DNA from: Sphingobium xenophagum NBRC 107872
Lineage (GTDB): Bacteria > Pseudomonadota > Alphaproteobacteria > Sphingomonadales > Sphingomonadaceae
Direction: 5' to 3'
NCBI RefSeq assembly: GCF_000367345.1
Contig: NZ_BARE01000023.1
Location: 1-64,000 of the forward strand
Length of the DNA: 64,000 bases
Made by a program: the position numbers and the translations under genes. The notes beneath the pieces are model-generated. The model had not been told where the DNA came from. It saw only the letters and a list, made by a program, of their open reading frames with translations, and did no database searches. Below, piece by piece: positions 42,168 to 46,093 of the stretch (the stretch's first letter is position 1; every line of letters starts with the position of its first letter).

Positions 42168-42171
<4 letters not shown>

Positions 42172-42671
42172 GGTCGCTCACGCCCCGTGATCAGGCGTAC
42201 CGCCTAAACTCCCCTCCCCTTCAGGGGAGGGGCCGGGGGTGGGGGCTGTCGGTTGAGCGCCTCGCTCAATTGGATGGCTTCGCTCACGACATGCGTCGTG
42301 ATCCCACCGAACCGGAAAAACGCTTATGGACTCGTTTGTCCCGTTCCCAACTCGGTGGCCATAAATTCCGCCGCCAATCAGTCATAGGCCCGTTCATTGC
42401 CGATTTCTTTTGTCCGCAAAAGGGGTTGGTCATCGAAGTGGATGGCGACACACATGATATTTTGGCGGACCTCAAGCGCGATGCAGCATTGAACAGGCTT
42501 GGCCTTTCGGTGCTGCATGTCGGCAATGCAGATGTGATCAGCAATCTTGACGGGGTGTGCGAAACGATCCTGCATCGGCTTGAACAGGCTCCGGATCGTT
42601 GGGCATACCCCCACCCCAACCCCTCCCCTGAAGGGGAGGGGCTTTCTCCCTCTCAAGGAACAGAATTTTGA
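42168..42671 (+). CDS. DUF559 (Vsr-like) endonuclease-domain protein, repeat-flanked
   Basis: A 167-residue protein whose core (about residues 43-140) is a DUF559 PD-(D/E)XK/Vsr-like nuclease: [32 protein letters not shown] and [11 protein letters not shown] hold the predicted catalytic acidic residues. The N-terminal and C-terminal tails ([22 protein letters not shown]) are simply read through the flanking GC-rich repeats. The frame opens at GTG 42168 overlapping the sufB stop and closes as TTGA over the next gene. An internal ATG at 42291 could give the nuclease alone. It does not belong to the SUF pathway and looks like an insertion. Confidence 0.83.
42211..42246. repeat. GC-rich hairpin repeat, left of DUF559
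   Basis: CCCCTCCCCT and AGGGGAGGGG form a 10-bp perfect stem with a 2-nt loop (42211-42232). A G-rich tail with GGGGGTGGGGG follows. The same unit occurs inverted at 42609-42641, so the DUF559 core lies between two facing copies. Confidence 0.88.
42609..42641. repeat. GC-rich hairpin repeat, right of DUF559 (inverted copy)
   Basis: This is the reverse complement of the left unit: a CCCCCACCCC tract, two bases, then the stem CCCCTCCCCT (42620-42629) and AGGGGAGGGG (42632-42641). The stem is identical to the left copy; the joining dinucleotide differs (TT instead of CC when read in the same direction) and one G is missing in the tail. Confidence 0.88.
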
Positions 42672-43885: not shown

Positions 43886-44013
43886 CGGAATATCTGTCCT
43901 ATCGCGGTGAAATACGAGATAATATACTTAAGTTACAAAGGCTTATACCGAAAACACCGTGCATATGGACGAAGTTGGACGAGTTTGAACCGCAAGGCAT
44001 TGAAAACAAAGCG
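43886..44013. other. AT-rich gap inside the SUF operon
   Basis: The stretch between sufC and sufD is clearly poorer in GC than its surroundings (for example GAGATAATATACTTAAG at about 43915-43931). It contains the second copy of the 22-bp motif at 43970-43991. A TTG at 43975 is in frame with sufD but has no support. It may hold an internal promoter or the remains of an insertion. Confidence 0.5.
43970..43991 (+). repeat. 22-bp tandem-9-mer motif, copy 2
   Basis: CGAAGTTGG and ACGAGTTTG followed by AACC, 20 of 22 bases shared with 994-1015. It is also preceded by CATATG (43962-43967). It lies 22 bp before the sufD ATG. Confidence 0.5.
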
Positions 44014-44766
44014 ATGAACATGTTGGACCTTCCCACCCGCCGCGACGAAAGCTGGCGTTATAGCGACCTTTCGGCGCTCCAGAGCGTCTGGCCGCTGCCC
44101 GCGCCGGTGCGAATCGACGTTGCGGCGGGCGAAGCGGCGCATCACCATCTGTTGCAGGACGCAGCCGATGGCGCGACGGCGGTGCATGATTATGTCGTGA
44201 CCGTGGCCGATGGCGCGCGCTGCGATTTTCACGTCCTCAACATTGGCGGCCAGCTGGGGCGGGTGACGATCGACGTGACGCTGGGTCGGGGCAGCCATTT
44301 CGAGCTGGGCGGCGCCATTCTGGGCAGCGGTGATCAGACGTTGGAAATCGTCACCAGCGTCACCCATGCGCAGCCCGACGCGACCAGCGGCCAGACGATC
44401 CGCTCGATCCTGAGCGAGCGCGCCACCGGCAGCTATCTCGGCAGGATCGCGGTCGCCCGCGACGCGCAGCGCACTGACGCCTTCCAGTCGGTCAAGGCCA
44501 TGTTGCTGGATCGCACCGCGACCGCCAATGCCAAGCCGGAACTGGAAATCTATGCCGACGACGTGAAATGCGCCCATGGCGCGACCGTAGGCGAACTGGA
44601 CAAGGCAGCGCTTTTCTACATGGCCTCGCGCGGGATGGACCCGGCGACCGCCAAGACGCTGCTGTTGCGCTCCTTCGTGGCGGGCGTGTTCGACAGCGTG
44701 GCGGACGAGGCGGTGAAGGACAGGCTCGAAGCGGCGGCGATCGCCAAGCTGGAGGCAATGGTATGA
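44014..44766 (+). CDS. sufD: Fe-S cluster assembly protein SufD
   Basis: The second scaffold subunit of SufBCD, 250 residues, shorter than the 400-residue E. coli protein but typical of sphingomonads. The N-terminal RRDESWRYSDLSAL motif and the C-terminal KCAHGATVGELDKAALFYMASRGM, with the conserved His of the SufB-SufD interface, identify it. The ATG at 44014 is chosen over the upstream TTG at 43975, because the leader region is not coding-like. Its stop forms ATGA with a 41-codon frame that runs through the repeat at 44786-44868. Confidence 0.93.
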   Translation: MNMLDLPTRRDESWRYSDLSALQSVWPLPAPVRIDVAAGEAAHHHLLQDAADGATAVHDYVVTVADGARCDFHVLNIGGQLGRVTIDVTLGRGSHFELGGAILGSGDQTLEIVTSVTHAQPDATSGQTIRSILSERATGSYLGRIAVARDAQRTDAFQSVKAMLLDRTATANAKPELEIYADDVKCAHGATVGELDKAALFYMASRGMDPATAKTLLLRSFVAGVFDSVADEAVKDRLEAAAIAKLEAMV

Positions 44767-44888
44767 ACGCTGTTCCATCCCACTCCGTCATCCCGGACTT
44801 GATCCGGGATCCAGGGCGGCACGCATGGTGTGGGAGACTCTGGATGCCGGATCACGTCCGGCATGACGAGGAAGGTAAAATCCTGTGA
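44763..44888 (+). other. 41-codon repeat-derived frame joining sufD to sufS
   Basis: This frame starts at the ATG overlapping the sufD stop and ends at a TGA overlapping the GTG start of sufS. Most of it is read through the palindromic repeat, giving a peptide with VIPDLIRDPG. The peptide is unlikely to be functional, but ribosomes could travel along it and reach sufS. Confidence 0.4.
44786..44868. repeat. 83-bp double-hairpin REP/REPIN-like element
   Basis: The element has nearly identical inverted ends (CGTCATCCCGGA and TCCGGCATGACG, 11 of 12 matching). It contains two hairpins: ATCCCGGA/TCCGGGAT at 44790-44810 and ATGCCGGA/TCCGGCAT at 44844-44864, each around a 5-nt loop. The layout is that of a REP doublet. 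It sits between sufD and sufS without breaking translation coupling. Confidence 0.88.
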
Positions 44889-46093
44889 GCGTCATCGCCC
44901 CCGAACGCCTGTCGCTCCGCGCCGATTTCCCCGGCGTCCTCGACTGGCATTATCTCGACAGCGCCGCCACCGCGCAAAAGCCGCAGGCGGTGATCGACGC
45001 CATCGCCCGCGCCTATGGTCCCGACTATGCCACCGTTCATCGCGGCGTCTATGCGCGGTCCGCCAACATGACGCTCGCCTATGAATCGGCCCGGCGCAAG
45101 GTGGCCGGTTTCATCGGCGCGAAGTCAGACAGCGAAATCGTCTATGTCCGCGGCGCGACCGAAGGGATCAACCTGGTCGCGCAATGCTGGGCGGGCGAAC
45201 AGCTGAAGGCGGGCGATCGCATCCTCCTGTCCACGCTGGAACATCACAGCAATATCGTGCCGTGGCAGATGGTGGCGGAAAAGGTCGGCGCCCATATCGA
45301 CGTCGTGCCGCTGACCGATGATGGCCGGATCGATCTTGACGCGATGCGCGCGATGATCACGCCCCGGCATCGCATGGTCGCGCTCGCCCATGTGTCCAAC
45401 GTGCTGGGCAGCGTGCTGGATTGCCGCCGCGCCGCCGACATCGCGCATATGGTCGGCGCGCGGATATTGATCGACGGTTGCCAGGCCGTGCCGCGCCTCG
45501 CCGTCGACGTTCAGGCGCTCGATTGCGATTTCTACGTCTTTTCCGCACATAAACTCTACGGCCCGACCGGCATCGGCGTGCTGTGGGCGCGGCAGGAACT
45601 GCTCGACGCCATGCCCCCCTATCAGGGCGGCGGATCGATGATCGACAAGGTGACGTTTGAAAAAACGACCTACGCCCCCGCGCCGACCCGGTTCGAAGCG
45701 GGAACGCCCCACATCAGCGGCGTGATCGGCCTGTCGGCGGCGATCGATTATGTGCATGCGATCGGGCTGGACGCCATCCACGCGCATGAATGTGCGCTGG
45801 TGGCGCAGGCTCGCGCGGCGCTCGACAATCTCAACAGCGTGCGGGTGTTCGGGCCGGACGACAGTGCGGGCATCCTCTCCTTTGAAGTCGAGGGGGTGCA
45901 TCCACACGATGTCGGCACCATATTGGACGAAGCAGGCGTCGCGATCCGTGCCGGGCATCATTGCGCCCAGCCGCTGATGCGCCATCTGGGCGTGGAGGCG
46001 ACCGCACGGGCCAGCTTTGGCATTTATAGCGATCAGGGCGACGTCGATGCGCTGGTCGCGGGTTTGGAACGGGTAAGGAAGATCTTCGGATGA
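44885..46093 (+). CDS. sufS: Cysteine desulfurase SufS
   Basis: A PLP enzyme of 402 residues that takes sulfur from cysteine for cluster building. The PLP lysine is in FSAHKLYGPTG, the substrate site in LEHHSNIVPW, and the persulfide-forming Cys in RAGHHCAQP, as in type II (SufS) desulfurases. The start is GTG 44885, with AGGAAGG eight bases upstream. No sufE is present in the visible operon, so the sulfur acceptor partner must lie elsewhere. The stop overlaps sufT by ATGA. Confidence 0.96.
   Translation: MSVIAPERLSLRADFPGVLDWHYLDSAATAQKPQAVIDAIARAYGPDYATVHRGVYARSANMTLAYESARRKVAGFIGAKSDSEIVYVRGATEGINLVAQCWAGEQLKAGDRILLSTLEHHSNIVPWQMVAEKVGAHIDVVPLTDDGRIDLDAMRAMITPRHRMVALAHVSNVLGSVLDCRRAADIAHMVGARILIDGCQAVPRLAVDVQALDCDFYVFSAHKLYGPTGIGVLWARQELLDAMPPYQGGGSMIDKVTFEKTTYAPAPTRFEAGTPHISGVIGLSAAIDYVHAIGLDAIHAHECALVAQARAALDNLNSVRVFGPDDSAGILSFEVEGVHPHDVGTILDEAGVAIRAGHHCAQPLMRHLGVEATARASFGIYSDQGDVDALVAGLERVRKIFG

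Follow-up and report, generated by a model that had tools for sequence, protein, structure and literature searches.

According to the excerpted text of Di Nocera 2013 (PMC3733652), CGTC REPs are for the most part alphaproteobacterial repeats that occur predominantly as dimers, have no dedicated transposase and are defined by a CGTC (or TGTC/CCTC) tag, a stem of 8-9 bp that opens with AT, a loop of 4-5 nt and a CCA tail; they lie mostly between genes, with intragenic and N-terminal cases also reported. Excerpts of the same paper describe rickettsial palindromic elements (RPEs), which are palindromes carried in frame within proteins. MIRUs (Supply 1997, as cited in the consulted part of PMC12548453) are short mobile repeats that carry their own ORF and insert at start codons, the ORF being coupled to the downstream gene by a 4-nt overlap and insertion damage thereby being limited. 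Short ORFs that deliver ribosomes to the next start have also been reported, and those described in the available portions of PMC12548453 and PMC13255528 are located upstream of a gene or are synthetic. For termination-reinitiation gene pairs, the accessible sections of PMC6728339 and PMC10666635 give ATGA overlaps, a strong dependence on distance and an enrichment of overlaps in complex subunits. In these sections, 13 of 14 tested overlapping gene pairs were strictly coupled (PMC6728339), coupled pairs span overlaps or gaps from about -8 to +10 nt, and coupling is almost lost at a gap of ~20 nt (Huber 2023, PMC10666635).

The joint between sufD and sufS in the 64,000-nt stretch analysed here (hereafter the window, meaning that whole stretch) shares traits with each of these systems. 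Its element resembles CGTC REPs in the CGTC tag, the 8-bp stem, the CCA tail, the opposite units forming one large stem-loop, the alphaproteobacterial host and the position between genes, whereas the excerpted description of CGTC REPs includes neither a frame bias at operon joints nor a stop-to-start mini-ORF. As in a MIRU, an ORF overlaps the downstream gene by 4 nt, although this likeness concerns anatomy only. Insertion at start codons with an ORF of its own sets the MIRU apart from the window element, and several differing palindromes take up the arrangement here at certain junctions, while the same repeat elsewhere does not. Compared with termination-reinitiation pairs, the joint holds two putative couplings in series through a repeat-born ORF; compared with ribosome-delivering short ORFs, the window ORF would relay between two operon genes. 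RPEs recall the fused SufS tags of relatives, whereas the window repeat stands between genes and adds nothing to SufS. The bridge architecture is already known from MIRUs, and what differs here is that its register follows the joint rather than the element, with several palindromes converging on it. Among the titles listed in searches of the open-licence literature, none described the retention of REP inserts in coupling frames in sphingomonads.

The sufD-sufS joint and its repeat

Pfam searches of the window genes recovered the SufBD core (sufB and sufD), an ABC ATPase (sufC), a class-V aminotransferase (sufS), FeS_assembly_P, Fe-S_biosyn and an Rrf2 regulator, and gave no match for sufX or for the mini-ORF between sufD and sufS (Table 1). 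The sufD stop (TGA 44764-44766, preceded by the last codon GTA) lies within ATGA 44763-44766, and GTGA 44885-44888 stands on the sufS side, giving an overlap of -4 nt with the neighbour at each end of the mini-ORF, within the geometric range of coupled pairs. A sequence-only reading of the window had described this 41-codon frame running from the sufD stop to the sufS start, and its coordinates are confirmed. The length and frame of the mini-ORF in the window genome (G000) are identical in two other genomes, G080 and G009. The GGAGG upstream of the mini-ORF was probably the former ribosome-binding site of sufS, because the sufD stop and the sufS start overlap in all 62 insert-free genomes. The present Shine-Dalgarno (SD) region of sufS has a predicted unpaired probability of 0.60 and the sufS start one of 0.18; SD masking was rejected as a whole explanation on account of this open SD region.

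Table 1. Positions of features around the sufD-sufS joint in the window
Feature	Position	Strand	Details
DUF559 gene (PF04480)	42168..42671	+	joins sufB (GTGA) and sufX (TTGA) by 4-nt overlaps
AT-rich insert between sufC (stop TAA) and sufD	43886..44013	+	unbridged; no recognised repeat motif
sufD	44014..44766	+	start ATG 44014 or 44020; PF01458 (SUFBD_core) for 44020-44766
GGAGG	44751..44755	+	7 nt upstream of mini-ORF ATG; read directly in the sequence
Bridge mini-ORF, 41 codons	44763..44888	+	ATG 44763 on sufD stop to TGA 44886-44888 on sufS GTG
Whole dimer	44786..44868		83 bp; inside mini-ORF
CGTC REP-type unit 1	44786..44813	+	CGTC tag, 8-bp stem, 5-nt loop, CCA tail
CGTC REP-type unit 2	44841..44868	-	orientation opposite to unit 1; CGTC ends outward
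AGGAAGG, Shine-Dalgarno-like site for sufS	44869..44875	+	directly outside the palindrome
sufS	44885..46093	+	start GTG; PF00266

The repeat unit reads ATCCCGGA-CTTGA-TCCGGGAT-CCA, with ATCCCGGA and TCCGGGAT forming the 8-bp stem, and CGTCAT, which includes the unpaired CGTC tag, stands at 44786 and, on the minus strand, from 44868. Half-unit patterns with up to 3 mismatches match the window at these two places only, with ~0 matches expected in shuffles. The double-hairpin element of the earlier reading retains its two units and its 83 bp, but its RNA is predicted to fold as a single long hairpin in which both units pair (-62.1 kcal/mol, z -4.4), rather than only as two. The repeat recurs in this genome: a pattern search gave 20 half-sites with up to 3 mismatches, several of them paired, versus 0 for a reversed control, and a DNA search gave 25 partly overlapping matches at E<=1, the weakest of which may be chance. 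Judged by its sequence, the window element fits a CGTC REP dimer. Across the operon loci compared, repeat motifs match 111 times in 49 kb between genes and 4 times in 484 kb of gene alignments, as expected if intragenic insertions were purged. Operon loci yielded matches to 27 CGTC dimers, of which 23 have just one open sense frame, so that bridging is no free property of the repeat.

Taken alone, the sufD-sufS bridge could be chance. When the window insert was shifted in phase by 1-2 nt, the joint stayed linked in ~6% of trials, so that phase alone makes the single case a roughly 1-in-3 event, and only the comparative set described below exceeds chance. The internal comparison of repeat copies suggested by the earlier reading was also carried out: 18 CGTC loci were examined in this genome and 11 same-strand neighbour pairs were tested, 5 of which (L001, L002, L003, L007 and L013) have a gap below 130 nt. 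Bridging was found in 2 of these 5, a number too small to reveal any bias by itself.

The DUF559 cassette, which the earlier reading had counted as a second case in the same operon, is indeed joined to sufB and sufX through overlaps of 4 nt; as a gene with a Pfam domain, however, it is of a different kind. CTCCCC...GGGGAG palindromes lie near both of its ends, within the ORF, and the cassette looks like a gene carried along with repeats. A tblastn match to it was present in 24 of the 93 operon regions fetched.

Inserts at sufC-sufD and sufD-sufS across the genus

sufS was found in 93 of 94 genomes of the genus, G017 being the sole genome without a match at E<=1e-180, and the operon region was fetched for those 93; the sufD-sufS joint was readable in 90, and the other three, whose contig lacks sufD, were set aside. 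Under the strict rule, a joint counts as linked if a start codon overlaps the upstream stop and the frame it opens either runs in register into the downstream gene or terminates no more than 2 nt from that gene's start; this rule was framed after the sufD-sufS joint had been seen, and the other joints were tested later. Inserts were counted if they lay 31-300 nt above the empty-joint length, while spacers more than 300 nt above it (11 at sufC-sufD, 22 at sufB-sufX, 3 at sufX-sufC and 1 at sufT-sufA), some of which are real genes, were excluded. The number of linked inserts expected was obtained from random 1-2-nt shifts inside the same inserts. Inserts were also clustered by flank similarity, with the reservation that the clusters may not be independent and the genomes are not.

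All 90 genomes have a start codon overlapping the sufD stop, which is fused in frame with sufS in 84 and opens a bridge in 6. The six bridged genomes comprise four insert types whose ORF closes on the sufS start, namely the CGTC dimer shared by G000, G080 and G009, a different CGTC dimer in G063, a TCCTCCCC-type repeat in G013 and a mixed insert in G095; sister species of the window genome carry different repeat families at this joint. By the strict rule, all 28 inserts counted at sufD-sufS are linked (22 fused and 6 bridged), versus 3.1 expected after shifts, and 25 of 29 are linked at sufC-sufD, all as bridges, versus 6.4 expected. Insert-free joints are linked without exception (50/50 at sufC-sufD and 62/62 at sufD-sufS). 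By cluster, linkage holds in 9 of 10 at sufC-sufD (tail P 1.8e-3) and in 19 of 19 at sufD-sufS (P 3e-8). No repeat motif was recognised in 7 of the 29 and 5 of the 28 inserts, respectively. In G015, the sufC stop is now TAA and the bridge is kept via TAATG. Net length differences within clusters are multiples of 3, which restates the linkage and is not separate evidence.

In many relatives (L098, L149, L104, L145, L173 and others), palindromic repeats of two differing families form in-frame N-terminal extensions of SufS. At the sufS start of L102, an extra small palindrome (24 nt net) is nested in the SufS-tagging repeat with the frame kept. A requirement for some start codon may by itself account for in-frame fusion at sufS.

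The joint as the probable determinant of the frame, and competing explanations

The bridge anatomy and the frame bias recur at certain junctions of the operon only. Among inserts with a recognised motif, 22 of 22 at sufC-sufD and 23 of 23 at sufD-sufS are linked by the strict rule, versus 1 of 29 at sufB-sufX, 0 of 17 at sufT-sufA and 0 of 8 at sufX-sufC. Counting all inserts of 31-300 nt, strict linkage is found in 3 of 36 at sufB-sufX (2.8 expected after shifts; 8 of 36 by the loose rule), in 1 of 23 at sufT-sufA (2.1 expected) and in 0 of 8 at sufX-sufC (0 expected), where the loose rule links 7 of 8, but with a shifted rate of 0.55. The clusters linked are 2 of 10 at sufB-sufX and 1 of 10 at sufT-sufA. 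Neither joint is a perfect control: no start stands at the stop in 8 of 13 empty sufB-sufX joints, and most sufT-sufA inserts follow a TAA or TAG stop. When a start overlapping the upstream stop was required, 53 of 54 genomes at sufC-sufD and sufD-sufS were linked versus 4 of 28 at other joints (Fisher 1.5e-15, with genomes not independent), or 28 of 29 versus 3 of 10 by cluster (Fisher 5.7e-5).

The same contrast holds for CGTC inserts alone, which form bridges in all 4 genomes concerned at sufC-sufD and in all 4 at sufD-sufS (two insert types; G063 contributes at both joints), whereas at sufB-sufX they close on sufX in 0 of 26 cases by the strict rule and in 4 of 26 by the loose one, with a start codon at the sufB stop in 15 of 26. 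In the sufB-sufX joints of G006, G055 and G105, read by eye, the mini-ORF instead ends at the start codon of a small ORF lying in between. At the sufB-sufX joints of L119, L133, L134, L137 and L161, a small gene reading M-T-R-I-E-L-A-E-M or similar (by eye) follows a CGTC-like dimer, whose mini-ORF closes on the start of this gene in 3 of the 5.

Linkage at sufC-sufD and sufD-sufS but not at sufB-sufX, even for CGTC inserts, indicates that the joint, not the element, would set the frame, and selection for continuous translation is considered the best explanation with fairly good confidence. The first of two possibilities raised by the earlier reading, that an insertion was kept only if it preserved coupling, gains support from these comparisons. 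Normally, sufC-sufD and sufD-sufS overlap by NTGA, and downstream translation would be tied to the preceding gene. Palindromic repeats of several families would land at both joints, and mostly only unbroken translated paths would persist, with two outcomes. Either the old start would stay in frame and turn the repeat into an N-terminal tag, as is more frequent at SufS, or it would open a mini-ORF whose stop overlaps a new start for the downstream gene, as is found in all linked repeat-sized inserts at SufD and in the window joint at SufS. Because a gap of ~20 nt nearly abolishes coupling, the ~120-nt insert should uncouple sufS from sufD, and a bridge ORF that overlaps its neighbours by 4 nt at each end would re-establish the coupling in two steps. 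After terminating on sufD, a ribosome would start again at 44763, unwind the hairpin as it translates the mini-ORF, stop at 44886 and reinitiate at the sufS GTG. The frames would accordingly be translated, termination-reinitiation would be the probable mechanism, and Suf subunit balance may be the reason. Against such selection, the window genome, G080 and G086 have in common an unbridged AT-rich sufC-sufD insert without a recognised motif, and G078 has a similar one, so that linkage is not indispensable; the strict result of 0 of 8 at sufX-sufC also counts against it, as does the bridging of no more than 2 of the 5 close same-strand CGTC copies in this genome. The inserts of G022 and G101 share a similar CTGTCCTA stretch with this AT-rich insert, yet are bridged.

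The strongest competing explanation, though an unlikely one, is that ribosome cover over the insert blocks Rho-dependent termination or RNase attack, the frame being kept for transcription or mRNA survival rather than for reinitiation. The inserts do fold strongly, with a median predicted MFE of about -96 kcal/mol in bridged sufC-sufD contexts, and the excerpted PMC12548453 presents Rho polarity on untranslated RNA as general. However, sufB-sufX lies upstream of sufC, sufD and sufS, and its inserts are unlinked in 33 of 36 cases by the strict rule and 28 of 36 by the loose one, which implies that untranslated hairpins are tolerated inside the operon; moreover, protection from Rho or RNase by itself needs no mini-ORF ending exactly on the next start, as is seen in 25 of the 29 sufC-sufD inserts.

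Chance is considerably less probable than Rho or RNase protection. Any TGA stop preceded by A, G or T creates a start codon, CGTC dimers have at least one open frame, and one-third of phases close on the next start, in agreement with the 1-in-3 phase probability of the single case, the 2 of 5 close copies bridged in this genome and the sufB-sufX rate at its shifted expectation. Chance is nevertheless contradicted by the comparative set, in which 28 of 29 clusters at sufC-sufD and sufD-sufS are linked versus 12 expected when the observed phase is counted as linked and each of the remaining phases is given its measured rate, and by the recurrence of the pattern outside the genus.

It is marginally less probable still that the pattern is a MIRU-like property of the element, whereby repeats carry their own ORF and insert in register at stop/start overlaps. 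The architecture matches that given for MIRUs in the available part of PMC12548453, and the CGTC bridge peptides are similar, the repeat being the same. On the other hand, four repeat types of differing sequence (F1-F4, motif classes defined in this work and judged by eye to be mutually unrelated) reach the same arrangement, and the out-of-register CGTC inserts at sufB-sufX contradict an inherent property there for CGTC dimers. In addition, the sufS stop overlaps an in-frame sufT start in 75 of 93 genomes, and the sufS-sufT joint holds no 31-300 nt insert in any of the 93. The second possibility of the earlier reading, that the element tends to insert at stop/start overlaps, therefore appears unsupported as a general rule.

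Least probable of all is a functional small protein as the product of the mini-ORF. Of the 7 sites that vary among G000, G080 and G009, 6 fall at third codon positions (chance 0.007; the 7 sites were counted by eye), but third positions are not consistently in excess in other clusters, the bridge peptides have little in common from one insert to another apart from repeat sequence, and the Pfam search gave no match. Peptide function was set aside, as changes are not consistently synonymous and the peptides are not conserved.

Returning to selection for continuous translation, the unlinked joints hint that an own ribosome site and a relay may be alternative solutions. At sufT-sufA, 19 of 20 unlinked inserts provide a start whose SD match reaches 4 nt or more, versus 3% of 65 linked empty joints, although the script assigned to each unlinked joint whichever start had the longest SD match and thus favoured unlinked joints. 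The median unpaired probability of the SD region is 0.25 in bridged sufC-sufD joints, 0.40 in empty sufC-sufD joints and 0.51 in unlinked sufB-sufX joints, a hint only, since the start choice favours unlinked joints.

A more general proposition, to which even weight is given for and against, is that, in the Suf operon of this bacterial family, sufC-sufD and sufD-sufS need one unbroken ribosome path and keep repeats of any family only as relay ORFs or N-terminal tags, while sufB-sufX and sufT-sufA are free, so that mobile palindromes would act as natural probes of coupling. If this is true, insert phase read genome-wide would map the operon joints that need coupling, without experiment. The repeated insertion of differing palindromes at one and the same site is comparative evidence of selection on translational coupling at particular operon joints, and suggests insert frame as a genomes-only test of which gene pairs require coupling. 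Relay ORFs and N-terminal SufS tags would also represent a route by which intergenic repeats become coding.

Genomes outside the genus and the secD-secF joint

Outside the genus, the 63 genomes compared were the best-scoring of 289 searched rather than a random draw. At sufD-sufS, they contain 23 inserts, of which 21 are linked by the strict rule and all 23 by the loose one, with one further case set aside because its anchors were too far apart. At sufC-sufD, all 10 inserts no longer than 232 nt are bridged by the strict rule; the rows set aside at this joint comprised 17 with anchors too far apart, 2 with missing anchors, 3 longer bridged spacers and 10 'fused' rows of 353-380 nt, which were read as late alignment starts in SufD.

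A second CGTC dimer with a bridge, L007, lies at ~1427-1546 on contig C133 of the window genome, where the bridge runs from ATGA to ATGA and the gap of 118 nt is as at sufD-sufS. Judging by their protein sequences, the flanking genes are presumably secD and secF. In the 90 of 92 matching genomes that were read, secD-secF holds 17 inserts, 16 of them bridged by the loose rule and 6 by the strict one; the empty joint is a gap of ~20 nt with no overlap, and some inserts have a high shifted rate. As an independent operon, secD-secF is suggestive only. SecD and SecF form a single ORF in 8 of 90 genomes of the genus, which were set aside from this count.
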